NCBI GenBank assembly: GCA_963855995.1
Contig: OY979717.1
Location: 46,280,044-46,344,043, forward strand
DNA: 64,000 nt
Origin: Muricea muricata
Lineage: Eukaryota; Cnidaria; Anthozoa; Malacalcyonacea; Plexauridae
Reading direction: 5' to 3'
Part shown: piece by piece, positions 10,277 to 54,450 of the stretch
Layout: each line of letters begins with the position of its first letter
How positions within the stretch are numbered: the first letter of the stretch is position 1
Position numbers and translations under genes: made by a program
Notes under the pieces: model-generated
Databases searched by the model: none
Told to the model about the DNA's origin: nothing
The model's input: only the letters and a program-made list of their open reading frames with translations

Positions 10277-13200
10277 TTAATGATGTTCTTCCTCATAGTA
10301 TCGTGGTCGATTGTCTCTATTTTCTCTTCTTGGGTATCTTCTGGCCTGTTCCTCTTCCCTAGGTTCCTCATCAACATCGTCATCCGATACATCATATCCG
10401 ATTTCATTTTCCTTTTCTGAGAACCGGGCCCCGAATTCTTCCTCTTCTTCGCTGTTGCTAAAATACGGGTCATCAACGTCTTTCATGTAAGGTGTTATTC
10501 GCTTGAAATGTGATGAATTCCGTGTAACCGTAACTCCGCGGCGTTTTGCTGTGATCTGTGATCCTTTCACACGCGTTACTCGATAGGGGGACGGATTCCA
10601 AGGCAGATATAGTTTATTTCGCTGATGTTGTTTCATCAATACCAAATCTCCGATACGCAATTGTGACTCTCTAGCATGGTTCCGTATATCTGCACGAACT
10701 TTCATCTTACTCTTTTCGAGAGCATCTCGTTGAAGTACGGTCTCGCGATTTCCCTGTTCTGATACCTCATCTAGTTGATGGCTCTCACTTCCTCTCTCTG
10801 CATCCACTCGATTCTTTTCTGGAATTACTGCGTTGTGGTCAGGCAGTCGGTTTCGGATTTGTCGGTTGAAAAGTAAATCGGCCGGGGCTTTTCCCGTTGT
10901 AGCATGTGGTGTTGTACGATAATCCAGGAGAAAACGATAAAGGTCATGCTTCCAATTCTTACCCTGTGAATGGGCAATTCTAACCGACTTTTCAATCGTC
11001 CTCATAAACCGTTCGACTTGGGAATTGGCCTGCGGCCAATATGGTGTTATTTTTCGATGCTTAATACCATTTGTCGCTAGGTAACTCTGAAAATCGTGTC
11101 CTTGAAAAGGGGGACCATTATCACTTACAAATTCAATTGGAAATCCATGAATAGAAAAAATTTTCTCGAGCTTTTCAATAGTCACTGAAGTAGAAGGTGA
11201 TCGAATGATTTCGACTTCCGGAAACCGCGAGTGTTCATCCATTAACACTAAAAGATAGTCCCCACTGGGAAATGGTCCACAAAAGTCTCCATGAATTACT
11301 TGCCATGGCTTGGATGGCATAGTTGTCATCTTCAATGGTTCGACATTTTTCGAGTCATTTGCAGCTTGACATTGGACACAAGAAGAAATTAGTGTTTCAA
11401 TCTGCCGGTCTATCCCAGGCCACCAAACTTTTGTTCGAAGCAAGGTTTTGGTTTTTACAATACCTTGGTGCTGGCCATGGGCGATATTTAAGGTCTGGTT
11501 TCTCAACTTCCTGGGCATAACAAGACGATTCCCTCGAAGAACAATACCATTATCTGAAACAGTCAGTTCGTTCCGAATACTTTGATAGGGTGTGAGATCA
11601 ATGTTAGTGTTGCTATTTGCCCTCTTTGGTTTTCCTGTCCAGTGACCCGTTCTAATAGCCGTAATGAGGGATTGAATTTCTGCATCTTTTCGACACACGT
11701 TTTCGATTTCCTGTCTACTCATAGATTTCGGCACTGAGTGGTTAGTTAGAAAGTTCACGTAATCTTCAGCAATGCTGTTTTTCTCCAATGTTACCAACGG
11801 TTGACGAGACAGAACATCAGCTGGGTTTGTTTTACCAGGTCTGTGGCGTAGAGTAAACTGGTATTGTTGTAAGCGCAGCGCCCAACGTTCTATCCTTGCA
11901 GATGGCTTTGCTTTAGGATGATATATAACTTCTAGTGGTTTATGATCGGTATCTAGCTCGAAATTAATTCCAATAAGGTAGATGTGAAATTTTTCACATC
12001 CGAAGACAACTCCAAGTGCCTCTTTTTCAGTTTGTGAATAACGTTGCTCAACCTTGCTGAGGCTCCGGCTGGCATATGCAACAATTCTCTCATTACCGTT
12101 GATGTCAAATTGCGATAAAATGGCCCCTAATCCGACGGGACTTGCATCGACTGTTACTCGTGTTCGTTTGGATGGGTCATAAAAAGCAGTCGTACAATCT
12201 TTCGCGATTTCTTCTTTCACTTTGTTAAAAGCCTGTTCGTGCCTATTTGTCCACTTCCACATGACGCCTTTATTTGTTAGCTCACGCAATGGTGCTGTTA
12301 TTGTTGCCAGGTGAGGGATGAACCGTTCACAATAGGTCGCCAACCCCAAAAAACTGCGTAGCTGAGAGACATCTTTCGGCACTTTCATATTAACTAGTGC
12401 TTCAATTTTGTGTTTGTCTGCCGAAATGCCATCCTTGGACAAGATGTACCCGTAGAACCAAATACTGTCAACATTAAATGTACACTTTGAATCATTAAGT
12501 GTAAGATTACTTTCAAAAAGGCGCTTCATGAGAGCTTCTAGACGTGTATCGTGTTCTTTCTGCGTCTTTCCCCAAATGATGATATCATCTGCAATATTTC
12601 TGACACCCTCTAGCCCCTGCAATGTTTTTTGAATTGCAAACTGAAACTGCTCGGGTGCTGAATTCACTCCGAAACACAGACGCTTATACCGCATCAGACC
12701 ATTGTGTGTGTGAAATGTAGTAAGAGATCGGGATTCTTCGTCAAGCACCAACTGATGAAATCCTGCTGTTAAATCCACTTTAGAAAACTTTGTAGCTCCA
12801 GCCATGTCTTCGAAAAGTTCCTCGACGTTAGGGATAACATGCCGCTCTCGCTCAATCATGGGATTAACATTTCGCATGTCAACGCATACTCTAACTTCGG
12901 TTGAATTATGTGGTTTGGGTGCAACAACTAGATTTGATACGTAAGGTGTAGGTGTCCCAGCTGGAACAAATTCAATGATGTCATTATTTTCAAGTTCTTT
13001 TAGTTTTTTCTCGGTTTGTTTTCGAAGATGAAAAGGTGTCTTCCGGGGTTTTTGAACAACGGGTTTAGCATCATTTTTCAGATGTAGGTGCACTTCGTGG
13101 TCTTTTAATTTTCCAATGCCATTGAAAACTGTGGGGTATTCTTGTTTAAGCTTTGACATTATTGGTGAATCAGGTTTTTTGTTTTTAAGGGCTGGTGGAC

Positions 13201-14572
13201 TCTCATTCCCAAACTCAGCATGATCTTCTCGAGGATCAGTATAAGGGGCAGGGCCGGACTGAGCTACTGCATTCACATTTAACTTTACAATGCCTAACTC
13301 TGTTGCTGTAGAATAGCTGAGTAGTGAACCCCCATCACCATTTACCACATGGAATACTGTCACAGCCATTTTTTGCTTTGACTCAATAAGTCCCTCAAAT
13401 TTTCCTAGGACTGGCAAAGGTTGAGATTGCATGTAAGCATAAATTTTGTGCGTCGAATGTTGCAAGTGCAAGCTTGGATTTTTCTTTTTAATTTCATTAA
13501 AAGCTTTGGTATCTAAAATGTTTATTGTTGCCCCAGTGTCAACAATCATTCTTATATTGGTTTTCTCAACCACAACAGGCATGGTTTTAACCTTTGATGC
13601 CGTTTCTGTACCTTTCTTTTCTACTGGTGGGGGCACAGTGAATACATACGAATCCTCGTCTGAGGACTCTGACTTCTCTGCCTTATCAGTAACCGATCGG
13701 ATGTTGAAATCGCCTTTTTTTTCTGATGGTTTGCTACTGGTATTCCGACCCCGGCTACTACGACACATAGAAGCAAAATGATTTTGTTTTCCACAGGCAA
13801 AACAAGACTTCCCCTTGGCTCTACACTCACTAAGGTGACCTGCATAGTAGTTATCACCACAATTATAACATACCTTCTTACCACTCTGTTGCTGTTCATG
13901 TGTTCGCTCTTGTCGGACACCTTTTGCATGATCAGAGTTTTCCCTTGTGCTAGGAGACTGGGCGCCTGAGTTTCCTTGTTGGTTATGTACCAGATTAACA
14001 GAATTCGAAGAAACGCATAAATTACCATTATCTGCTTCTAATGCTTTTACAGCTTTATCTGTAATTTCCAGTGTTCTAGCATATGCCAATGTATCTGCTA
14101 ATGTCAAATCCTCTTGAATAGCTTTTCTTCGTACTCTTGAAGACAAACACGCCTCTACAAGTTGAATTTTGATTTCATGTTCACTGTCGGAAAATTCACA
14201 AATGATTGCTTGTTGTCGAAGTCTAGTACAATACTGATCAATTGTTTCCTCCGTCATTTGTTTCAACTGGCGAAATTTATGGGTTTCGAATAAAAGATTT
14301 TTCTTAGGTGAAAAATATGCACTTAACTTTTCAATTGCTTTCTTGTAATCTTTATCTTCCCCGACATCAGATAAAGTTGCAAAAATCTTCTCAACCTCGT
14401 TTCCAGCAGTATACAAAAGCAGAGCTCTTTTCCTAGTTTCATCTTTTATGTCCATCGCAACCACGAACCGTTCGAATCTTTGCAACCATTCTTTCCAGCG
14501 AACAGATAAAGTAGTTGGGTCAGAATACGGATCGAATTTCTCCAAACTTGACAAATCTAAAGCCATTGCCAT
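10277..14572 (-). CDS. gag-pol: Gypsy gag-pol polyprotein, 1431 aa
   Basis: One open frame carries all replication functions with no frameshift between gag and pol. A capsid-like region spans about residues 1-190. Two zinc knuckles follow at about 235-270; the second is a canonical C-x2-C-x4-H-x4-C, and the first has unusual spacing. The aspartic protease (IVDTGATINIL) is near 345. The reverse transcriptase spans about 500-700, with KVDLTAGFHQL and the active site IADDII in place of the usual YxDD. RNase H (TVDASPVGLGAIL, TDHKPL) covers about 810-930. The integrase has an HHCC finger (WWPGID...CVQC) and catalytic Asp (GDFCGPF), Asp (SDNGPPF) and Glu (NSQVERF). A GPY/F-like module and an acidic, Arg/Tyr-rich tail end the protein; there is no chromodomain. 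I chose the first Met, which lies about 120 bp inside the 5' LTR. Confidence 0.95.
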   Translation of the reverse strand: MAMALDLSSLEKFDPYSDPTTLSVRWKEWLQRFERFVVAMDIKDETRKRALLLYTAGNEVEKIFATLSDVGEDKDYKKAIEKLSAYFSPKKNLLFETHKFRQLKQMTEETIDQYCTRLRQQAIICEFSDSEHEIKIQLVEACLSSRVRRKAIQEDLTLADTLAYARTLEITDKAVKALEADNGNLCVSSNSVNLVHNQQGNSGAQSPSTRENSDHAKGVRQERTHEQQQSGKKVCYNCGDNYYAGHLSECRAKGKSCFACGKQNHFASMCRSSRGRNTSSKPSEKKGDFNIRSVTDKAEKSESSDEDSYVFTVPPPVEKKGTETASKVKTMPVVVEKTNIRMIVDTGATINILDTKAFNEIKKKNPSLHLQHSTHKIYAYMQSQPLPVLGKFEGLIESKQKMAVTVFHVVNGDGGSLLSYSTATELGIVKLNVNAVAQSGPAPYTDPREDHAEFGNESPPALKNKKPDSPIMSKLKQEYPTVFNGIGKLKDHEVHLHLKNDAKPVVQKPRKTPFHLRKQTEKKLKELENNDIIEFVPAGTPTPYVSNLVVAPKPHNSTEVRVCVDMRNVNPMIERERHVIPNVEELFEDMAGATKFSKVDLTAGFHQLVLDEESRSLTTFHTHNGLMRYKRLCFGVNSAPEQFQFAIQKTLQGLEGVRNIADDIIIWGKTQKEHDTRLEALMKRLFESNLTLNDSKCTFNVDSIWFYGYILSKDGISADKHKIEALVNMKVPKDVSQLRSFLGLATYCERFIPHLATITAPLRELTNKGVMWKWTNRHEQAFNKVKEEIAKDCTTAFYDPSKRTRVTVDASPVGLGAILSQFDINGNERIVAYASRSLSKVEQRYSQTEKEALGVVFGCEKFHIYLIGINFELDTDHKPLEVIYHPKAKPSARIERWALRLQQYQFTLRHRPGKTNPADVLSRQPLVTLEKNSIAEDYVNFLTNHSVPKSMSRQEIENVCRKDAEIQSLITAIRTGHWTGKPKRANSNTNIDLTPYQSIRNELTVSDNGIVLRGNRLVMPRKLRNQTLNIAHGQHQGIVKTKTLLRTKVWWPGIDRQIETLISSCVQCQAANDSKNVEPLKMTTMPSKPWQVIHGDFCGPFPSGDYLLVLMDEHSRFPEVEIIRSPSTSVTIEKLEKIFSIHGFPIEFVSDNGPPFQGHDFQSYLATNGIKHRKITPYWPQANSQVERFMRTIEKSVRIAHSQGKNWKHDLYRFLLDYRTTPHATTGKAPADLLFNRQIRNRLPDHNAVIPEKNRVDAERGSESHQLDEVSEQGNRETVLQRDALEKSKMKVRADIRNHARESQLRIGDLVLMKQHQRNKLYLPWNPSPYRVTRVKGSQITAKRRGVTVTRNSSHFKRITPYMKDVDDPYFSNSEEEEEFGARFSEKENEIGYDVSDDDVDEEPREEEQARRYPRRENRDNRPRYYEEEHH

Positions 14573-17692: not shown

Positions 17693-18394
17693 CTAATATA
17701 GAGGTGGATTATCTGAAGCACGCCTTGGGTACAACTGGGGGCCGGCTTGTAGCTCAATATTGCCGACAGCATCTGGATCCTCGTTGACCCTCTCACCAGG
17801 AATTCCCAGAGCAGGAATCACGTATCCGTCGTAGTTGCGTGGGGTTGGACCTGAATATGTAGGAATGTGTGGTTCTTGGGGACATGGTTTTGAGGACGGT
17901 TCAAGAGTAAATGCAATGTTTTGTTGTTGTGGTATAGCATTATTAAAGCTAGCGTTGGATACTTCTCCAGTTTGCAAAGATCTGGGGCTGGCATTAGTTG
18001 AATTACTTGGTTGTCTTCTCTTGTAACACCAAAACACAGAAGCGCCGAGGGCAATAAGTAACACTACTGCAGCTGTAACTATAACAGCCACGCGCCATGG
18101 TGGACTCACGCGGGTCCTGAATAGGGCGGTCAGTAGAATACTCCGAGCAACCATCTTGGGTACATTTCTCACCAACACAGCATTCATTTGGAGATCCACA
18201 GTCTTCGTTAAAGTCGCAATCCTTGCCAACGCATGTCGTAAGACAACGACCTTTTCCAAGATAATACGGCTCTTTTCTACAACAATACGTCCCTGAATTG
18301 CATCCAGAGTTCGACTTACAGGAATGTAAGAGACACCAGACACCTTTTGTTTTATTTTGGCAAAACACCAGTCATACAGTGCGCTTGGAATCAC
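17693..18394 (-). pseudogene. Receptor-family paralogue C, truncated and frameshifted
   Basis: The upstream part (18003-18368 frame) holds cysteine repeats such as SGCNSGTYCCRKE and DCGSPNECCVGEKCTQDGC, matching the fifth and sixth repeats of genes A and B. The downstream part, in another frame (17693 to about 18115), gives the membrane span (VAVIVTAAVVLLIALGASVF), a KRR stop-transfer and a tail with DGYVIPALGIP and a terminal PPLY. The frame change lies where A and B have their last DxDC..CC..GKC repeat. The signal peptide and the first four repeats are absent. A donor-like GTGAGT near 18110 leaves open a spliced gene, but the truncation argues for a pseudogene. Confidence 0.7.
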
Positions 18395-31824: not shown

Positions 31825-33107
31825 CTTCGGAGTATGTTTTTCTTATATAATTCTAGTTCACTCCCTGTACATTGTCTTGGGCAATTACATTGTCTATCAT
31901 CAGTATTTCTCTTGGAATTTTACAAAGAAAATTGCTCAATATTTAGCAGAGGAGGGACTCTATTCTGGTAACTATAGCGACAATAAAAACTAACAAAACA
32001 TTTTATGGCAGGGAGACTGCCATAACGACTGAGTCCCTTCAACAATAACTCCCTCAACTTTGGCAAGAAATAAAATGATTTGACGAATGATTTAAATGAG
32101 TTCTGCTTTGTTTTGTAATTTTAATAAGTTGAATATACACCAATAAAAAGCAATTGAGTTATTTGTAAATGGAAAAAATATAAACTTACGGATCATTTGA
32201 AGTTACCCCCCCCCCCCTCCAGCCCTTGGCGTCTATTCAAATAACAAAATTTAGCATTTGAATATACGGTCACTCTAAAATACAGTCTGTGGTCGTCGGA
32301 GAATCACTCATATTTATAAAATTTTGGCAAATACTTTGGCGATATACTAAGATAGCTGCTTAATGTTTATGCAAAATATTTTAACGTAAACAATGCGCAA
32401 TGACAAATACATAGGCTATTAACGCGCTTCTGTCTCAAAATAATATAACGTGTTTTGTCCAAAACAAACAAGATTTCTCGTTAGTTCATCGCGGCACTTT
32501 CATGACGAAGTTTTGAAGTGTTTAACTAACTGTTATAACGAGAAAACGCAATTACTATGTGTAAATAGCCAGTATGGAAACAAATATCAAATATCAGAAA
32601 TCAACAAATATATAAAAAAGAAATTTTGATGTTTTAACGTGTTTATCTTTTTATTTTGTACCGTAGAGCAGGTAACCACGACGCAATTCGACGATAAATA
32701 TACAGCAAATCTATTATTATACTTCTAGGGGACTTTTCCCTGGGAAGTTACCATGCAGGCGGCGGATTGGTCAACTCGTAATAAATATGATTTATTCGTC
32801 TAGCTCGTGATTGGCGAACGAAACAAGACGAATAGAATGTTGTTCTCAAGCAGTGAACTGAATATAGCTGGAAGGCTACCTTCGTATAAATCCGTACGCA
32901 AAATTTGAAGCCAAACTTGACTTCCAGAAACGCGTGTTTATGTCCCGCGCCCATCACTCGCGTGAGATCTCTGCAAGTGTTGCAGCATGTTGTTTTTGGC
33001 CGAGTTTTTAATTGCGTTGAAAGACTGGGAAGGACTTTAACAAGTTGGCTTCAAATCTCCCGCCTCAGGTGGGACATTGGTAGCTAACATTAAAATCGTT
33101 TCGCCGA

Positions 33108-33108
<1 letters not shown>
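31825..33108. other. No recognisable gene
   Basis: A C homopolymer lies at about 32206-32217. I recognised no conserved protein. Confidence 0.4.

Positions 33109-33148
<40 letters not shown>
33109..33148. repeat. (AT)n tract at the recombinase transposon left end
   Basis: The AT dinucleotide repeat runs directly into the TTATCACATACT terminus. Confidence 0.9.
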
Positions 33149-33152
<4 letters not shown>

Positions 33153-34826
33153 CACATACTTGTGCCTTTATCAAGGCGATAACACGGTGACATAAAAACG
33201 ATATGTCCCGTGATATCGTTTTTTGTCCCGCGATATCGTTTTTTGTCCCGCTCGATTTTCCCGCTAATAAACAAAGATGGCCGACTCAAGGTTTGAGTCA
33301 GTCGAAGTGGATCAATTTATTAATTTAAAAAAGAATGATAACACAAAAAGAAAAACCTCGTCCGACGTGACACTCTTTCAAAGGTTTCTTAAGGAAATAC
33401 ATGACATAGACGAAGATTTAGAAGAAATTGAGCCGGAGCTTTTAAACAACTACATGGCAGAGTTTTTTGTCAGTGTACGAAAGCCTGACGGACAACAATA
33501 CGAGCCTTTATCTCTTCGCAGTTTCTTCGCTTCATTCAACCGCTACTTGAAGGAAAAAGATTACCTGGTTGAAGTCACCCAGTCACCTATGTTTTACAAA
33601 GCTCGTGAAGCCCTTAAGGCAAAACAAAAAGACCTTAAAAGCCTCGGCAAGGGAAGTAAACCGAATGCCGCCCGTTCACTAACCGACGAAGAAATAAATA
33701 TTCTTTATGAAAAGGGAGAACTTGGTTTGTCTAATCCGAAAGCACTTATCAATATGCTTTGGTGGAACAATACAACTCATTTTGGATTGAGGGGTTGCAG
33801 AGAAAACCGAGATCTTTGTTGGGGGGACGTAAAACTTCGAAGCGATTCATCTGGCACGGAATTCCTGCAATACTCAGAACGTCAGACGAAAACAAGATCT
33901 GGAGAAAATCCCCTTGACCTGCGAAAGGTTAATCCCACAATGTGGCCATGCTCTGATCCAATGCGTGACCCAATTGCAGCCTATAAGAAGTATGCTGGGG
34001 AAAGACCACCAAAAGCATGTACACCAGAATCTCCATTTTACTTGGGTATAGACCACAGCAAGAATCCTAAGTACTGGTTCACCACACAGGCTATGGGTAA
34101 GAATACTATTAACAAGTTAATGAAAACTATGTGCAAAAATGCCGGAATTTTTGATGAAGAACAGAAGCTCTCCAACCACTCAGCCCGCAAAACATTGGTA
34201 AAGAAACTAAAAGGAAACAACATTCCGGATACAGATATTATACAAGTAAGTAATTACCTCTTACTTGAATATTAGTAAACATCTAGGCATAGTTGGTGAA
34301 TCATATAATTAATTTTTAGGTCACTGGTCATAAGAACTTAATGAGTTTGAATACCTATGATCAGCTTTCCAATGATCGAATGAGAAGAATGAGTGGTATT
34401 CTCTCTGGAAGTGAGACTAAATTAGCTCAAAATATCCCAGTGTCACCAAATAGAATAGGAGGAATCTTGTCTGGATCCATTATTTCTGGTGGAACAATGA
34501 ATATCTCAATAAATTCAAGTCAGTCATCAAAAATATCACCCACTTTTATTAAAGCAACAACTGTTGTTCGATCAACAAAGAGGAAGCATGCTATAATTGA
34601 ATCAGATTCAGATGAGGAGTGACTTTAAAACTATGTTATAGCAACTAGGTTTTTATTGTTTACAATAATTGAAATATTTCTCAATTATTTTGTTGATGGC
34701 AGTTGCAAAATGTTATTTATTTTTCTTGTTTTGTTATGATAAAGTTTCAATATTGATGTGAAATAAATACTTTTTCCAAATCGACAAGCTTAAATGAAAC
34801 CTGATAAAGGCACAAGTATGTGATAA
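33149..34826 (+). mobile_element. Crypton-type tyrosine recombinase transposon with TIRs
   Basis: The left end starts TTATCACATACTTGTGCC and the right end (34803-34826) is its exact 24 bp inverse. Between them lie the promoter region, a two-exon tyrosine recombinase gene and an AATAAA signal at about 34763. The first 105 bp recur with three differences at the outer end of the derivative at 35526-35886. The outer left flank is (AT)n. No target duplication is recognisable. Confidence 0.8.
33277..34622 (+). CDS. Crypton-like tyrosine recombinase, 423 aa, one intron
   Basis: Exons are 33277-34245 and 34320-34622. The 74 bp intron has a GTAAGT donor and TTTTTAG acceptor, and splicing keeps the frame. 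The N-terminal core-binding part (FQRFLKEIHDI, LRSFFASFNRYLKEK) precedes the catalytic domain. All tyrosine-recombinase residues are visible: Arg in HFGLRGCRENRDL, HxxR in NHSARKTLVKK, His in VTGHKN and Tyr in SLNTYDQLS, the last two in exon 2. The GLRGxRE style matches the DUF3504/KCTD1-QRICH1-ZMYM group of Crypton-derived proteins. A serine-rich tail ends in an acidic SDSDEE. The start codon lies 24 bp inside the 105 bp end repeat. No lesions were seen. Confidence 0.9.
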
Positions 34827-34829
34827 AAA

Positions 34830-34981
34830 GGTTATCACATTCGAGGCTCGGTAATATCAGTTTTATCGCTCTCGTTACGATATCATATTTGTCCCTCGTT
34901 CGCTGCGCTCACTCGTGACAAGATATGATATCGTCCCTCGAGCGATAAAACTGATATCACCTCACCCTTCATGTGATAACC
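34830..34981. repeat. Palindromic MITE, copy 1
   Basis: This 152 bp unit begins GGTTATCACAT and ends ATGTGATAACC. Its interior is self-complementary (CAGTTTTATCGCTC, GAGCGATAAAACTG). A second copy is at 35370-35522. Confidence 0.85.
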
Positions 34982-34982
34982 T

Positions 34983-35115
<133 letters not shown>

Positions 35116-35223: not shown

Positions 35224-35368
<145 letters not shown>

Positions 35369-35369
35369 A

Positions 35370-35522
35370 GGTTATCATATGAGAGGCGAGGTGATATCAG
35401 TTTTATCGCTCTCGTTACGATATCATATTTTGTCACGAGTGAGCGCAGCGAACGAGGGACAAAATATGATATCGTAACGAGAGCGATAAAACTGATATTA
35501 CCGAGTCCCGAATATTATAACC
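35370..35522. repeat. Palindromic MITE, copy 2
   Basis: About 153 bp from GGTTATCATATG to ATTATAACC, with the same interior hairpin as copy 1 (CAGTTTTATCGCTCTCG and inverse). Confidence 0.85.
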
Positions 35523-35525
35523 TAT

Positions 35526-36003
<478 letters not shown>

Positions 36004-36259: not shown

Positions 36260-37429
36260 TCAATGAATACTTGAATAAGGAGGCGGATCATCAGGGAAAG
36301 AAGTAGGGGTCTGGCCACTTGCTGGCCGTCGGATTCCTCTGACTTCTCCATAAGGGCTATCGTATATTTGATCAGCAGCATTGGGTACATTAGGAATCGT
36401 GTATCCATAGTCTTCATTGCGTGGAATGTGACTTGAAAATTTGGGAATTTGAAGAGTGAATACAGTTCCTTGTTGCAGTGTAGGATCATGAACGCATGTG
36501 TTTTGCGCCCCGTTAACTTGGCTTGTATTGTTACGTCGTTTTACCTTACAACGCCAAAACACAATAGCGCTGGCAGCGATAAGTAACACTACAACAACTG
36601 CAATTATAGCAACCATGAGCATCGAGTTTGAAGACTCTTTCGTCGGCGATGGCACAGGAGGCTTTTTCGTCGATGTCATAGGAGGCTCTTTCGTCGCACA
36701 AACGCTGCGATTGACACATTTTCCAGAAAGACAACAGTACGTACAGTCCGAGTCAGTAGAACACTTCGGGCAACCATTTTTGGTGCATTTTCCTGCAATA
36801 CAGCATTCATTTGGTGGTCCACAGTCAGTGTCCGAGTCACATTCCTCGCCTATGCAAGTTTCACTACAGCCATCTTGCACAATCCAAACGTTTTTCTCTC
36901 TGCAACAATACTGTCCCGAATGGCAGTCAGAGTTCGCTTTGCAGTTTACCAGACATGACAGCGATGATAGTCCACCAACACACTTACCATCTCGACAACA
37001 TTCCCTACTGTTAGTTGCACAGTCGTCGTCGTTGTTACAATCTAGGCCATGACATTTTTCAGCACAGAGAGTTTGATCTGTAGGAAAGCTCTTCTTACAA
37101 CAAACATGACCAGAGGCAGAACAGTCCGAGTCATATTTACAGTTGGAACAACCATGGACAGTGCATTTATTCGAGCGACAACAGTATTTCGGATCACCAC
37201 AGTGGCTTTCAATTTCACAGTAGTGATTCAAGCAATCACCTCTTTGGCAGCTTCGACGTGTAACAGGAAAAATTGTCCATTCACCTCCGCAGCAATGAGG
37301 AAGAACGCCAAAGAGAATGTCCTCGCAGTCTTTGTTAGTATCGCATGGATATACACTTTGAAGAAGATTAACCTCGTTCCAAACCAAGATGCAAAGAGCA
37401 AACCAAGAAATAATACCACTTGCCATCAT
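36260..37429 (-). CDS. Receptor-like protein A: Cys-repeat ectodomain, TM, PPPY tail
   Basis: 389 aa in one exon. The signal peptide is [20 protein letters not shown] plus NLLQS. The ectodomain (about 28-245) has seven or so imperfect units of the form C-x3-DxDC-x5-8-CC-x2-GKC, e.g. [19 protein letters not shown] and [20 protein letters not shown]. These resemble EB, WAP or Dickkopf-like disulfide modules, but I cannot assign a family. A Pro/Thr/Ser stalk ([16 protein letters not shown]) precedes one membrane span ([20 protein letters not shown]) and an RCKVKRR stop-transfer. The tail has possible SH2 sites (YGYTIP, IYDSPY) and ends [10 protein letters not shown], a PPxY WW-domain ligand. Paralogues are B, C and D. 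The start is supported by the conserved signal peptide. Confidence 0.88.
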
Positions 37430-43410: not shown

Positions 43411-44067
43411 GGAGAGGAAATGAAAAAATTAGAAACAAGGGGAAACGAAAGTAATCGCAGTGGGCAAACAAATATTCGATGGTCGAGAGGAAGCAGATAA
43501 GAGAAACACAAAACCGCAAATAGGTTGTACATCCGGGACAAGCAACAATCCAAAACAAAAATCCTTGGCACACGTAGGGAAAAATCACAGATTCATCTAG
43601 CTTGTATTAGCAACGCACATATACGTATACGCCTTCGCTGTTTTCAAAGCATGATGTTTAGACCCCCCTTTCCCCCACACAATTAATGTTGTGGTAGAGA
43701 CTTAGCATTCGCCCAAATCATGTGCAACATTGAATGGGGGGGGGGGGGGGGGGAGAATGGAGTCAATATCTTTAAAACCTGGGGGAATAGAGAGTCTATG
43801 TCTTCATATTTGAGGTGTGTTATTATTTTTGTCCAGGATTGTCTGAGTTAATATATCCATAATTATATGTATTTTTTTCATTATTTTTACTCAAAATTTG
43901 CCAAATCCTTATTACATGCTGTTCCTACTTATAGGCGGGGATTTAAGTATACGTTAGAATGATTCTAGATTAAATACAGGGTGTGCGAAAGAATTTTATT
44001 GATTGTGACGTCATCGTTAATGTGCGGTGATATAAGTCACGCGTTCCGTGAATATAAAATAGGGCTA
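43411..44067. other. No gene; G homopolymer
   Basis: A run of about 17 G lies at 43737-43753. Nothing else was identified. Confidence 0.4.
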
Positions 44068-46127
44068 ATAGTCTAGATCCTGTATAGGGTTTTGTATGCG
44101 TTTCATTTACCAGAGATAATCTCAACTGTTTTAGGGTAAAATGACCATGTCGGTCAACATGGCATATGTGCCAAAACCTGAATCCGGGACGAAAGTCCTC
44201 AAAATGACCCCGCCCTAAAACGGCAGTGTCGACATAGCTCTAACTTCAGACCAATGCAAGCAACAGCCTTCCTGAAGTGCTTATAGTGTTTAAAAGGGTT
44301 GTTTATAGGGGTGGTTATTAGAAGTAAAACATTGCCTAACTGTAATATATTCCAAAGAAAATCCCCATTCAACATGCCAGGTCAACAGCTAATTATGCAT
44401 AAAATCACTAAAATCGCTGGCAGAAATTTACATATTTTCTACAAAAAATTATTATAACATGAAAAGCCATGTTCAATTGAATCCAATTATTGCAGATTTC
44501 AAAAGAATTGACATTGTCTTGTTGATATACAAGGCATTGTATTTCACTTACCCCCCGCAAAAACACGATTTCAGCCATATTTTCCGTCTTGTTTGCTTTT
44601 TTATCGCCGAGTAGCCGAAGTCTCATACAATTCTTGTACTTTTCCATAATCACAGATGACCAAAGAACAACTCAGCTCATTTTTTACTTGTTCTGAGACT
44701 GTGCCGTCTACTTTATCTTCGATTTGGTATCCTCGACAATTAGCCAAAATTGCCGCCATTGTGAAGTCTTGCCGCTTTTGTGTCCGATAAATGTGACTTC
44801 TTCGTCTTCCTGTGTATTCGCGAATACGTTGGCTTGTTTCCACAGCAAGACAAGTAAACATTTCATATTATTATATTTTCATGTATATTTGCGTATTGCT
44901 TTGTTTTTTAGCTTTAACTACCAGAAAATCTGACAGACTTATGTATTTTTCGCATTTTTATTTAAAAGGCGGTTCTTATTATGCCAAAGTAAAACATAAC
45001 TAAGCGTCTAAGCAAATAAAAGCCACTATTGTTTCAAAATTGAAACGTACGTATTGTCACTGCAGTGACATAGCCCTCAAAATAAAAATAGGGGAAATGC
45101 AAAACTGTCAGATTTTCTTGTAGTTAAAGCTTAAAAACAAAACAACACGCAAATATGAACAAGCAAACGTATTCGCGAAATATTCACTCCCCCCCGGTAT
45201 GGTCGCCCACGAGGAATTTTCGTGACGATTGCGCGTGACTTTCAAATTATTTCGAAGCTTGAAGACACTCGATTTTATGTGGGTGGATTTTTATATTTAA
45301 ATTTCATAGAAGTTTACAAAATTACCTTTAGAAATTCAATAGTATAAAGTACTGTTGGATTACATAATATAAATACACAGGAAGACGAAGAAGTCACATT
45401 TATCGGACACAAAAGCGGCAAGACTTCACAATGGCGGCAATTTTGGCTAGTTGTCGAGGATACCAAATCGAAGATAAAGTAGACGGCACAGTCTCAGAAC
45501 AAGTAAAAAATGGGCTGAGTTGTTCTTTGGTCATCTGTGATTATGGAAAAGTACAAGAATTGTATGAGACTTCGGCTACTCGGCGATAAAAAAGCAAACA
45601 AGACGGAAAATATGGCTGAAATCGTGTTTTTGCGGGGGGTAAGTGAAATACAATGCATTGTATATCAACAAGACAATGTCAATCCTTTTGAAATCTGCAA
45701 TAATTGGATTCAATTGAACATGGTTTTTCATGTTATAATAATTTTTTGTAGGAAATATGTAAATTTAACTTCTGCCAGCGATTTTAGTGATTTTATGCAT
45801 AATTAGCTGTTGACCTGGCATGTTGAATGGGGATTTTCTTGGAATATATTATAGTTAGGCAATGTTTTACTTCTAATAACCACCCCTATAAACAACCCTT
45901 CTAAACACTATAAGCACTTCAGGAAGGCTGTTGCTTGCATTGGTCTGAAGTTAGAGCTATGTCGACACTGCCGTTTTAGGGCGGGGTCATTTTGAGGACT
46001 TTCGTCCCGGATTCAGGTTTTGGCACATATGCCATGTTGACCGACATGGTCATTTTACCCTAAAACAGTTGAGATTATCTCTGGTAAATGAAACGCATAC
46101 AAAACCCCATACAGGACCTAGACTATA
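44068..46127. mobile_element. 2 kb foldback element with ~0.9 kb arms
   Basis: Left arm 44068 to about 44945 and right arm about 45095-46127 are near-identical inverse copies from the TAGTCTAG ends to the CTGTCAGATTTTCT centre. Each arm encodes the same small frame (MAAILA-CRGYQIEDKVDGT, VSEQVKN, YGKVQELYETSATRR). The right arm has an extra block near 45178-45360. No transposase was seen. A solo arm lies at 3085-3923. Confidence 0.88.
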
Positions 46128-46179
46128 AGAGACAAATTTCAAAAGTATATAGATTTTTGAAATATTGCAATGCTCAGTT

Positions 46180-46782: not shown

Positions 46783-46811
46783 ACACAAGGAACAGACAAG
46801 TTTTTGCTGCT

Positions 46812-46854
46812 GTCGCTACCCTGAGTTTCACGCACTAGGCGATGATCAGGCGAC
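46812..46854 (-). ncRNA. Hammerhead ribozyme-like motif, core mutated
   Basis: On minus, stem I GTCGC pairs with a distal GCGAC. Stem II is CGC-CTAGT-GCG, then GAAA, and stem III is ACT-CAG-GGT followed by A at the cleavage position. The catalytic core reads CTGATCA, not CTGATGA, so the G8 equivalent is changed and cleavage is unlikely. Confidence 0.55.
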
Positions 46855-46934
46855 TGACAGATAAGTTTAATTTATTCATTGTATAGGACACTGGAAATGT
46901 ATCAGGTATTATGTTACGTTACATGACTATTGGT

Positions 46935-47422
46935 TATATGTTTACATAAAGTGAAAAGTTCTGAACGTTTATTCAGGAGGTTGTTCGCTTTGTTTCCTTT
47001 CATGATCAAAAGCTTTTCTTCAAGACAGAGATTGCATTTTCGGGAACCAGCTTTGCACGAGGGTACGCGTTTGACGATCGACCATTTTATGTCATATGAG
47101 CGTTTCGTTTGAGCTTCCAAATGTACTTTGACAATTCTGTTTCGTTGCCATGGCGTTCGTTCTTAATGGACTTTGTGTGATTTTTGAATCTTTCTTTAAA
47201 CGAGTTAGCCGTCACCCCGATATACACTTTGGCATTATCTTTGCCTGTGGAGACTTCAGCTTTGTACACTAAGCTCTTTGCCAGGCATGTGTTGCTCACA
47301 GGACATTCGTCGGGTTTTCTGCAGTTGCATGTCTTTGTGTCATTGTTCGTCTTAGTATTTTTGGCCTTGTCGTTATGCTTCTTTAGCACGTATTTGTTGT
47401 GCTTAGATAGGAAAGATTCCAT
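46935..47422 (-). pseudogene. Penelope GIY-YIG endonuclease region
   Basis: The minus frame has CNCRKPDECPVSNTCLAKSL, VYKAEVST and KVYIGVTANSFKERFKNHTK. The CxC...C zinc-binding linker and the VYIGxT..FKxRxxxH pattern are the Penelope GIY-YIG nuclease that nicks the target. Coding shifts frame near 47105 into IKWSIVKRVPSCKAGSRKCN LCLEEKLLI. Confidence 0.75.
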
Positions 47423-49047
47423 GTTATCGCTACAACTATAGCTAACACGGACGGTATATCTGTTGAATATAGAGTGTAGTCTGTGGTGCGGTGGAAAATG
47501 TTTGTCGAGGAGCAGTAGGAAATTTCGTGCAATGTTTGTCGTAACGTTCTTACAAAATGGTGGGTTATACCAAATGTGTTTCGTTGCCGTGTGCGTCGTT
47601 TGTTAATAGAGTTAGTGTTAGCACTGGGTTCGTAATTAATTTCAGCGTGAAAGTTGCTGCGTTTAAGAGCGTCATTGTAGATAGGCGCAGCAGTATCAAA
47701 GGCCTGTTGATTGTGCGAGAGGGAGTTAATGCGTTGTTGCATGGAGGAAGGAATCTGTTTTAAGATAGAAGGAGGATGGTTAGAGAGGCGGTTAATATAA
47801 AAAGGAGTATCGTTTGGCTTGCGGTATGGCTTGTATGTGTTGTTGGCTAAGTCAAGTGTCAGGTCCAGGAAGTTAGTTTGCAGTTGGTTAGTCAGTACAG
47901 TTATGTTCAAGCCAAAGTCGTTGAAAATGTGTTCTAGGTCCTTGCGTGCTTTGTCGTTTAGTCGTCCTGATCTTGTGTTTAATGTAGCAAGTCCATCGTC
48001 ACGATATAGACCAATGTCGTACCCGAACCGATCTTTCAGTGTGTCTAAAACGAATAGGCCAATCAGCTCGCAAACTTCTGCGCCATCATAGCTGCCCATG
48101 GTGACATCAAACGTGCTGTCAGAATTTCGTTTCCTCCAAGCTGTGCCGTCGTGGTGTAGAAGTGATTTTCTTGCATGCTTGATCACCTGTATGTTTTGGT
48201 CGCTGATCTCCGAGTGTTGTTTGGCCCATTCGATAGCTTGGTCAAGTAGCGACTCTGAGATAGACGGATAAAAATCCACTATGTCATAGGAGATGAACGA
48301 CTTTCTGCTTTTATCCTTGATGTTGATAAACCACGAAATCACGTCGGTTGAATTTCGCCATTGGTTTACATGGACTTGGTCGCAAATGTCGTTGTTAATT
48401 CTGTCTAGGATTACTTTGCTTACTTTTCCGAGGGAGCTTTTCGAAGGGTTAATAAGTCGACACTTCGGGTGGTTTTCAAAATTAGGTTTGTGGTCCTTGA
48501 GAGTTATAAATGCGGGATTTTCGCTCGTTCGGTCTACACGTCCGGATATGTCTAATTTGCTGGCTAGTTGCATTAGTTCGTCGTTTATAGCGTTAACGGT
48601 GCCTTCTTCAGCGTGTTTGTAGATGTTAGTCACGTTTTCTGTGAGTAGCTTGCTGTATGCCGCAGGGTTCATTTCGTAGATGTTCCTAGTTTTGTCCGCT
48701 GGGACGAATACATTTGTTGACGCTCTTATCTTCACTTTGTCTCTTTCTATCGATTGCAAGAAGTCGTTGGTTTTCTGCGTGAAGTTAATGCTTTCAATCA
48801 TTTTAGCGACATCATCTTCGAATGGTTTCAAGTCAGCAACGCTCGGGGCCCCGTGTCTTGATTTCAAGCCATAAGTCTGTCGTCTTCGAGGTAAATTGTC
48901 ACTATTTGATTGTTGGAGGAAGAAATGTGCGCGCCATCGCATACGTTGAATGACGCTTTGAGTTTTATCGATCATGTTCCTACGGTAGTCGTCGTGAGTT
49001 GGGAGTCCAATGTTCTTCAATGAATAGTTAAAGCTGATCTGTTGCAT
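47383..49047 (-). pseudogene. Penelope-like reverse transcriptase
   Basis: The frame has conserved blocks in order: FVPADKTRNIYEM, FITLKDHKPNFENHPKCRLI NPSKS, SYDIVDFYPSISESLL (catalytic Asp), TMGSYDGAEVCELIGLFVL, and the active site GLYRDDGLA. FLDLTLDL and YRKPNDTPFYI follow. The last 55 residues are out of frame: the family's LLDKHFPPHH...FNR-TV..SYSC continuation is in another frame after about 47590. One frameshift in the RT end and another near the GIY-YIG end make it defective, although the RT core is intact. Confidence 0.82.
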
Positions 49048-49132
49048 CTTATACCAATAGTCATGTAACGTAACATAATACCTGATACATTTCCAGTGTC
49101 CTATACAATGAATAAATTAAACTTATCTGTCA

Positions 49133-49175
49133 GTCGCCTGATGATCGCCTAGTGCGTGAAACCCAGGATAGCGAC
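49133..49175 (+). ncRNA. Hammerhead ribozyme-like motif
   Basis: GTCGC, intact core CTGATGA, stem II CGC-CTAGT-GCG, GAAA, then a stem III region weakened by a change (ACCCAGGAT), then A and GCGAC closing stem I. It is antisense to the Penelope genes because the end repeat is inverted. Confidence 0.55.
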
Positions 49176-49276
49176 AGCAGCAAAAACTTGTCTGTTCCTT
49201 GTGTTTTACGCTCTACTTTCTCCGGTATTGAGCGCTCTTTTAGTTCCAGTCATATATATGCTACTTTTCGTAACAT

Positions 49277-52408: not shown

Positions 52409-53509
52409 TCAATGAATACTTGGATAAGGAGGTGGATAATCTGTGGCTCCGGGTTGTCGTTGGACGTCATCGTATGTTTCACCAGCAGCAATATCTAAAT
52501 TAGGGATCACGTAACCGTCACCGTCCCTTTCGCTGGAATTTGAAAACTTAGAAATTTCTTGTTGAAGAGTAAATGCAGTGCCTTTTTGCTGAGAAATAGT
52601 CTTATTAAAGCAAGCATTAGATGCTCCTTTAATTGGCAATGATCGTCCGTTGACTTGAGTTGCATTGGTTGCTCGTGTTCTCTTATAACAGCAAACAAAG
52701 ATTCCGCTGAGAGCAATAAATAATACGGCAGCTATAACTATAACAGCAATGCACAATAGTGAACAAGGCTCTTTCATCGCACAAACACTGTTTTCGACAC
52801 ATTTTCCAGAACGACAACAGTGCGGGCAGTCCGAGTCAGTAGAACACTCTGGGCAACCATTTTTGGTGCATTTTCCTGCAATACAGCATTCATTTGGTGG
52901 TCCACAGTCAGTGTCCGAGTCACATTCCTCACCTATGCAAGTTTCACTACAGCCATCTTGCACAATCCAAACATTTTTCTTTCTGCAACAATGCTGTCCT
53001 GAATGGCAGTCAGAGTTCGCTTTGCAGTTTACCAGACATGACAACGATGATTGTCCACCAACGCACTTACCATCTCGACAACATTCCCTACTGCCAGTTG
53101 CACAGTCGTCGTCGTTGTTACAATCTAGGCCATGACATTTTTCAGCACAGAAAGTTTGAGCTGAAGGAAAGCTCTTCTTACAGCAAACTTGACCAGGGGA
53201 AGAACAGTCTGAGTCATATTTACAGCTGGTACAACCATGGACAGTACATTTATTCGAGCGACAACAGTATTTCGGATCACCACAGTGGCTTTCAATTTCA
53301 CAGTAGTGATTCAAGCAATCACCTTTTTGGCAGCTTCGACGTGTAACAGGCGCAATTGTCCATTCGCCTCCGCAGCAATGAGGAAGAACGCCAAAGAGAA
53401 TGTCCTCGCAGTCTTTGTTAGTATCGCACGAATATAAACTCTGAACGAGAGTAACCTCGTTCCAAAAGAAGATGTAAAGAGCAAATCCACAAAAAATGTG
53501 ACTTGCCAT
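52409..53509 (-). CDS. Receptor-like protein B, paralogue of A
   Basis: 366 aa in one exon from the Met of MASHIFCGFALYIFFWNEVT, aligned with gene A's signal peptide; an upstream in-frame MVKKKLI would add seven residues. The ectodomain has the same cysteine units as A at roughly 90% identity by eye ([39 protein letters not shown]). The A-type Pro/Thr stalk is missing. The ectodomain joins directly to the membrane span (LLCIAVIVIAAVLFIALSGI), CCYKRTR and a different tail with DGYVIP, TYDDV and a terminal DYPPPYPSIH. GY-V/T-IP and PPPY are conserved with A. It probably binds WW-domain proteins through PPxY; its ligand is unknown. Confidence 0.88.
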   Translation of the reverse strand: MASHIFCGFALYIFFWNEVTLVQSLYSCDTNKDCEDILFGVLPHCCGGEWTIAPVTRRSCQKGDCLNHYCEIESHCGDPKYCCRSNKCTVHGCTSCKYDSDCSSPGQVCCKKSFPSAQTFCAEKCHGLDCNNDDDCATGSRECCRDGKCVGGQSSLSCLVNCKANSDCHSGQHCCRKKNVWIVQDGCSETCIGEECDSDTDCGPPNECCIAGKCTKNGCPECSTDSDCPHCCRSGKCVENSVCAMKEPCSLLCIAVIVIAAVLFIALSGIFVCCYKRTRATNATQVNGRSLPIKGASNACFNKTISQQKGTAFTLQQEISKFSNSSERDGDGYVIPNLDIAAGETYDDVQRQPGATDYPPPYPSIH

Positions 53510-54450
53510 TATTAGTTTTTTTTTAACCAAATGCGCCGCATTCCAACAGATGAGTCAAATATATAGAGCTTGGGAGACAGGAAGATCATAACTTAATTTT
53601 TTGTTTTTTCAATTCGTAATTATTTCCGTTAATCTGCTAATTATTTGCCTATTATGTTCTGTCATTGATAAAAATAACCGCAACACATTAATTCATAAAG
53701 CTTCCAAATCCAGGGTTAAAAACTACACAAATATTCAACCAATTGTTAGTTCACACACGTAATTGAAGATTTTGTAAAGTAAACAAGGACGTCATATTAT
53801 GTCATAAGCATGGCTATGCGTACTGCATACACATATAACTTCATAACGGATTGAACGCCATTGTTTCCTATAGTTTATAATATTTGGACTGAATACGTGG
53901 TTATTGAATTTATTGTAGTTGACTTAAACTTTGGCCAGCAGCATTTTTTAGTCTCAAAGATTTTGATACGGAAGTCTGCATCAATGCGCCAACACGTCAT
54001 AATTTTGATCAGTAAAAATATCTGCTACAGTAAATATTTCATTTGTATGTATACTTCACTTCTTCCGTTTAAACTACGATCACGACAGTGTATAATCATG
54101 CAGCAAAATATTTCAGCCATATTTTAAACTATTGCAATTTAAACAATTTTGTGTTTTAAAAAGAGAACATGGAGGATAACCTACAAATTTTGAATAATAA
54201 ATTATCATGTTTACAATCATGATGATACATTTGTTGAGCGTAATTTTTTGTGCTATTAACCTGCAACCTATGTTAATTAATACCAAAGGCTGGCGCAAGT
54301 GAAATTTCTGTACAGTAAACAATCCGGAACCACGCTTATGATTACTGCTTTCGACACTGGTTTCCATTTACTGGATAATTAACAGCAAAAAAAAATTGAG
54401 GAAACGAAGTGGTGACCAACATAATATACAAACACAGCACACCGTTGTTC
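53510..54450 (-). other. 5' flank of receptor gene B
   Basis: The shared blocks GAGCTTGG.AGACAGGAAGA, GATTGAACGCCATTGTTTCC and GATACGGAAGTCTGCATCAA appear in the family order. It has no MITE inserts, so it serves as the empty-site reference for the other units. Confidence 0.6.

Follow-up and report, generated by a model that had tools for sequence, protein, structure and literature searches.

Results

An intact tyrosine recombinase gene flanked by inverted repeats

The stretch analysed here, a window of 64,000 nucleotides from contig OY979717.1 of the cnidarian Muricea muricata, carries on its forward strand, at about 33149-34986, a unit that encodes a tyrosine recombinase (YR) and ends in a long fold-back palindrome (Table 1). 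The spliced YR is 423 amino acids long and has the catalytic set R172, K205, H301xxR304, H327 and Y336, which confirms the intact gene with R, HxxR, H, Y and one intron that the original prediction had described. In Pfam, exon 1 (plus intron read-through) matches DUF3504 at 1e-17, above the cut-off, and QRICH1 (3.5e-6) and Phage_integrase (0.017) below it, and in the PDB a YR profile built from 31 sequences finds QRICH1 (9.1e-16). The enzyme is of the DUF3504 type with the catalytic R-H-R-Y that defines CryptonA; this assignment is drawn from the domain and the catalytic residues, the YR tree holding database homologues and no Repbase reference CryptonA. Besides the two YR exons, 33149-34986 has as open reading frames (ORFs) of at least 60 amino acids only two antisense frames of 60-61 amino acids, so that the YR is the sole gene of the unit, as expected for CryptonA. 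All eight genomic loci with at least 86% identity match as two separate exons, and therefore the intron travels with the element.

Four exact copies of the 24-mer TTATCACATACTTGTGCCTTTATC lie in the window, two in the YR unit and two in a smaller unit nearby, and the exact inverse repeats flanking the gene are thus present as predicted. Within 33149-34826 the longest exact inverted match is 25, against 18 in the best of 500 dinucleotide shuffles, and the 453-Mb assembly, the one used throughout, holds 399 forward and 392 reverse exact copies (791 in total), while the reversed-pattern control gives 0. Shuffles and genome-wide count together rule out a chance origin of the repeats.

Table 1. Features of the YR unit, the second unit and the rest of the window, with the CTCG-bearing palindromes of other loci
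Feature	Position	Strand	Remarks
TA-rich run	33107-33148		left edge; target DNA or element-associated microsatellite
5' terminal repeat TTATCACATACTTGTGCCTTTATC	33149-33172	+	left unit end; start ambiguous by one T (33148/33149)
Subterminal region	33177-33251	+	self-complementary at 33177-33238; repeats of about 20 bp at 33204-33251
YR exon 1	33277-34245	+	carries R172, K205, HxxR 301-304
Intron	34246-34319	+	GT-AG, 74 bp
YR exon 2	34320-34622	+	H327, Y336, C-terminal tail
Inverted copy of 5' repeat	34803-34826	-	internal, not right terminus
3' fold-back palindrome	34829-34982		154 bp; z of DNA folding -9.5, equalled by none of 200 shuffles
Right unit end CCTATAC	34980-34986	+	CC/TATAC in 31 of 32 units; read directly at the L074 head-to-tail junction
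Second unit, non-autonomous	35365-35886	-	522 bp, opposite orientation to YR unit
Second unit, 5' repeat	35863-35886	-	exact 24-mer
Second unit, internal repeat copy	35526-35549	+	exact 24-mer
Second unit, palindrome	about 35369-35523		fold-back
Second unit, end GTATAGG	35365-35371		unit end, in reverse orientation
CTCG-bearing palindromes	window 34829-34982, 35369-35525; L066 2017-2180; L068 2218-2381; L070-L073	one strand	
Integrase core domain PF24764	9338-9826	+	3.6e-65; unrelated to YR unit
Retroelement polyprotein	10277-14572	-	1431 aa; reverse transcriptase, RNase H and integrase domains
Fragment of cysteine-rich ORF	17693-18394	-	third such ORF, by eye
Cysteine-rich, membrane-protein-like ORF	36260-37429	-	similar to 52409-53530
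Cysteine-rich, membrane-protein-like ORF	52409-53530	-	similar to 36260-37429
Large inverted repeat	44065-46129		97-98%; arms 301 and 395 bp, short centre
ORF between inverted arms	47383-49047	-	554 aa; 152-bp arms, 98%, at 46783-46934 and 49053-49204

The unit extends beyond the right-hand repeat

We read 32 units of the window's family (E and D units, E being the lineage of the window's YR unit): the window's two, 25 in the short regions L006-L014 and L016-L030, and five in the longer regions L031-L035. Left out of the short-region reading were L001, which is the window itself, L002-L005 (the same as L031-L034, read whole) and L015 (the same as L035). In all 32, a palindrome starts 2 bp past the right-hand 24-mer; it is about 155 bp long across the units, shortened in one (to 69 bp, in L033) and cut off in another. 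In 31 of them the unit end ATAACC/TATAC precedes a TA run, 29 of these ends being found by script and two, in L020 and L021, missed by the strict pattern and added from printed context; the exception is L024, with no recognisable unit end past the palindrome start. This adjacency and this end place the limits of the window's two units at 33149-34986 and 35365-35886, palindromes included. In L074 two similar, non-identical units stand head to tail with the junction CCTATAC/TTATCAC, where the 3' end is read directly.

The 24-bp copies are therefore asymmetric inverted repeats, one terminal and the other internal, and the earlier claim that they are the true termini of the mobile unit finds no support: the right copy is internal in every unit, 31 of the 32 end past the palindrome, and in a sister lineage (G2) empty sites prove outer limits beyond the palindrome. 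That claim, in which 24-bp terminal inverted repeats (TIRs) are adjoined by an unrelated palindromic miniature inverted-repeat transposable element (MITE), drew on repeats that are exact and symmetrical and on a palindrome that, from the window alone, resembled a separate MITE. It is scarcely credible, given that the palindrome lies at +2 bp throughout with the TA run only outside it, that none of the 32 units has a clean end in unique DNA at its right 24-bp copy, and that a palindrome also stands behind the gene in six further YR lineages. The constant adjacency to the right-hand 24-mer likewise rules out the palindrome as an independent MITE.

The same extension bears on a second alternative, a TA-targeting, mariner-like DDE transposon with the 24-bp repeats as TIRs and the YR as cargo. 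Its model would be MarCry-1_FO, for which 16-bp TIRs and TA duplications are reported (PMC3212892; here and below, statements on published elements refer to the accessible portions of the cited papers), and the location of the insertions in TA runs would suit it. It is nonetheless very improbable, since all 32 units continue past their right repeat and the window's YR unit codes for nothing beyond the ORFs listed above, and the empty sites of G2, which show no TA duplication, largely refute it.

Searching the genome with the 24-mer and the 5' end of the unit yields plentiful copies at the same time as it moves the right boundary beyond the palindrome. Across the best 40 of 745 candidate matches, those scored in this search, the unit's first 105-116 bp show 97-100% identity. 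Four other E units share 98.8-99.1% identity with the window unit, L033 over 1738 of 1835 bp; exon 1 is stop-free in L031 and L034, has one stop in L032 and a disturbed frame in L033. By these identities the window's YR family is young. What stands of the original prediction is a mobile unit with an intact Crypton-type YR, repeated ends, non-autonomous derivatives and young copies; the 24-bp ends as its boundary do not. A further unit of 2.3 kb (L035, 2001-4277) has the same ends and palindrome and a longest stop-to-stop frame of 82 codons; it retains the gene-start region, and its middle is longer and non-coding.

The neighbouring non-autonomous unit

The second unit of the window had been taken for a deletion derivative with the same ends. 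It does share the 24-mers and is non-autonomous, but its derivation from the window copy does not hold: a simple internal deletion of that copy is rejected by shuffle-tested alignment. Its first ~104 bp match E almost fully, and collinear homology then continues through the start ATG into about 25 codons, with a score that 1 of 1000 shuffles reached, its own reading frame meeting a stop after four codons; its other side shares just the 24 bp with E (743 of 1000 shuffles as good). Because the homology crosses the start ATG into the coding region, the unit must derive from a diverged element that coded for a YR and had the same ends. It represents a family of ~520 bp, with 30 pairs spaced 330-380 bp among the first 100 listed 24-mers.

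The same architecture in other recombinase lineages

From a YR protein search of the genome, in which the best 99 of 582 candidate matches were scored, six further lineages were read, G1 and G2 in two copies each and G3-G6 in one, giving seven with E. Their YRs are 34-47% identical to that of E and 32-63% among themselves, G3 and G4 being closest. A palindrome of 114-176 bp lies just behind the YR gene in all seven, with a self-complement identity of 0.77-0.89 and a folding energy far below that of 100 shuffles each. The left palindrome arms are related in some pairs (E-G3 0.66, E-G4 0.65, G1-G2 0.70, G3-G4 0.71; shuffles about 0.5) and unrelated in many, so that the shape of the palindrome is kept while much of its sequence changes.

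A 5' repeat beginning TTTAT, with an inverted copy beside the palindrome, is found in five of the seven lineages. The pairs measure 26 bp in E, 23 bp in G1, 28 bp at 86% in G2 and 14 bp in both G3 and G4; their scores are reached by none of 500 shuffles in E, G1, G2 and G3 (in G3 barely, 28 versus 27) and by 5 in G4. The predicted distinct lineage with end-specific recombination thus survives in altered form, in that the architecture recurs across YR lineages and the 24-mer does not.

The palindromes share a further property. Across the seven, 34 CTCGs stand against two CGAGs, a stronger skew than that of any other 4-mer, in what is a post hoc observation on seven sequences; the skew is notable because a perfect palindrome would hold both equally. 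The six CTCGs of G3 all face each other to within one base, with spacings mostly of 22-23 bp, and form mispairs of the hairpin; G2, G5 and G6 come near this pattern, E and G1 follow it partly, and G4 does not. In several palindromes mirror positions recur about every 22-25 bp, which would give CTCG/CTCG internal loops in a folded strand. Alternatively, the skew could stem from a polar protein-binding array on duplex DNA. As a YR core site we had considered the junction of 24-mer and palindrome, ATGTGATAA-ATAGG-TTATCACAT, an idea dropped because the palindrome arms of G1 and G2 are unlike the 5' repeat.

Insertion sites

In all 32 units of the window's family, 14-16 of the 16 bases to the left are A or T. 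The G2 copy L069 sits outside microsatellite DNA, and a gapped pattern of its flanks found 20 empty paralogous sites, 19 of them with the sequence AAGTAATATTATATTAACCCATTCC and the other longer by two bases. With the insertion, the site reads AAGTAATATTATATT/TTATGCC...CTCTAT/AACCCATTCC. Comparison of empty and filled sites shows that the G2 unit starts with the 5' repeat and extends past the palindrome, and that it was inserted between T and A (T^A), with 0 bp or at most one T duplicated. The sequence that L069 interrupts is repeated, and its flanks read, by eye, like exons of a multicopy gene.

Other features of the window

Neither the 554-aa ORF, which we take by eye to be reverse-transcriptase-like and Penelope-like, nor the two similar cysteine-rich ORFs have a Pfam match at 0.001. 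The segment 35140-35170, CTGAAGAAGCCCGAACGGGCGAAAC, looks like a hammerhead-ribozyme core; Rfam gives no match for it. Among the structural families that the comparison covered, Rfam returned nothing at gathering level, and its 12 permissive matches, most of them on TA runs, are all far under the gathering scores. The coral CMITEs are of the TTAA type and, as far as their description goes (PMC2872659), unrelated to this element.

Discussion

The integrity of the gene, the young copies, the limits of the unit and the presence of the same anatomy in other YR lineages are established here. We consider it probable that the element is a DNA transposon mobilised by its own Crypton-type (DUF3504), Cre-like YR, the unit running from the TTATCAC repeat (33149) through the YR gene, the internal inverted copy and the ~155-bp palindrome to CCTATAC (34986). 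In such a model the 5' repeat would pair with the internal inverted copy and the palindrome beside it would form a hairpin, both events together bringing the two outer ends close to each other; the YR would then exchange strands there, and the unit would enter TA-rich DNA between a T and an A, with no fixed duplication of the target.

The published ends closest to these are those of Helitron2 (Helentron) elements, in which a terminal 5' repeat starts with T and its inverted copy is subterminal, directly upstream of a 3' hairpin (PMC3627910). Both features are present here, so that the unit might be a non-autonomous Helitron2 in which the YR is a passenger and RepHel acts in trans. Elements of that group carrying Fanzor1 genes offer a precedent for passengers (PMC3627910), RepHel genes are plentiful in the genome (the best 150 of 352 candidate matches were scored), and the 5' end of E folds (z -4.0), as a Helitron2 5' terminal hairpin would, the values for two D-type 5' ends being -1.7 and -1.5. 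However, the gene found here is a YR and the unit has no RepHel. YR and 3' palindrome occur together in seven of seven diverged lineages, and a passenger would hardly be the one constant gene. None of the 21 RepHel matches on contig C1 up to 34.4 Mb lies within 10 kb of an exact 24-mer, the nearest being at 11.3 kb, and 30 RepHel loci of 3.4-3.6 kb lack any motif, a weak test in that the loci may stop short of the element ends. The dimensions differ as well: Helitron2 repeats are given as 8-15 bp, 0-2 bp from the 5' end, with the 3' copy ~20-30 bp from the 3' end (PMC3627910), whereas the copy in E, 24 bp long, lies about 160 bp from the 3' end, the repeats of E, G1 and G2 are longer, and palindromes of 114-176 bp exceed that spacing by far; only the 14-bp repeats of G3 and G4 fall within the published length. 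We thus regard the Helitron2 explanation as unlikely and prefer a YR-moved element, because the unit has no RepHel, none is close by in the part compared, and the YR is the sole recurring gene.

Several points weigh against a YR-moved transposon. The likeness to Helitron2 anatomy is close, and the RepHel proximity comparison covers part of one contig. We infer that the YR is the catalyst and the folded form its substrate, as we do transposition itself and any circular intermediate; the head-to-tail pair of L074, rather than being a sign of a circle, could be an insertion beside another insertion. In G5 and G6 the best repeat pairs lack significance, their scores being equalled by 91 and 359 of 500 shuffles, and the pairs of G3 and G4 rest on 14-bp matches. 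The evidence for T^A comes from G2, the E and D units lying in or beside TA runs. The copies were chosen by their 5'-end match, which favours young, well-matching ones, and the whole evidence comes from a single assembly; DNA of relatives, sought in viral and prokaryotic contig collections, was not found there.

In integrons, a YR acts on an imperfect palindrome, attC, folded from one strand, the mispaired bases setting the choice of strand; attC is the site of a cassette rather than the end of a transposon. By analogy with this folded palindrome and its mispairs, the use of a folded strand may be imagined here, and as a tentative possibility, more doubtful than YR mobilisation as such, we propose that an animal Crypton-type YR moves its element in folded form, either single-stranded or as an extruded cruciform: the repeats would pair, the hairpin would be read through its strand-specific CTCG/CTCG mismatches, and the YR would join the abutting ends, a mode similar to that of attC and converged on the end structure of Helitron2. 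Starships use another YR family. They are likewise eukaryotic DNA elements moved by a YR, but far larger (Sanctuary, 170-196 kb) and with direct repeats at their ends (PMC12506042). Among conjugative transposons, Tn1549/Tn916 sets a precedent for a YR that uses inverted end repeats and AT-rich targets; there, 11-bp imperfect repeats lie at both true ends, the available text describes no long palindrome, and the circular intermediate is shown, whereas ours is inferred (PMC5871717).

Among Cryptons themselves, the likeness to CryptonA includes a DUF3504-type YR with R-H-R-Y as the only encoded protein and non-autonomous derivatives, and may extend to the target site, where G2 shows a duplication of no more than 0-1 bp; the difference is that 5' repeat, internal inverted copy and 3' palindrome recur in several YR lineages (PMC3212892). 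As far as their accessible text goes, the 2011 survey by Kojima and Jurka found animal Cryptons without terminal repeats (PMC3212892), and a 2022 curation guide recognises Cryptons by their coding sequence, the sole distinguishing feature being a short direct repeat (PMC8969392). We found no description of this YR end anatomy for Cryptons in the literature searched, Repbase and most subscription papers lying outside that search. The best reading is a YR transposon of the Crypton type whose end architecture is unreported, an anatomy new, within that literature, for animal elements of this kind.

The ends of Cryptons have been hard to define so far, no terminal repeats having been found in animal Cryptons in the survey cited (PMC3212892). 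If the anatomy described here is general, animal Cryptons would become delimitable from sequence alone, large anonymous palindromic repeat sets would gain an enzyme (this family alone accounts for 791 exact 24-mers), and the way in which a eukaryotic YR transposon joins its ends would become testable. If YR mobilisation holds true, Helitron2-like ends alone would be no proof of rolling-circle transposition. Finally, QRICH1, ZMYM2-4 and other host genes with DUF3504 are held to derive from Crypton YRs (PMC3212892) and therefore, if the anatomy is general, the ancestral DNA substrate of their proteins may have been a folded transposon end.
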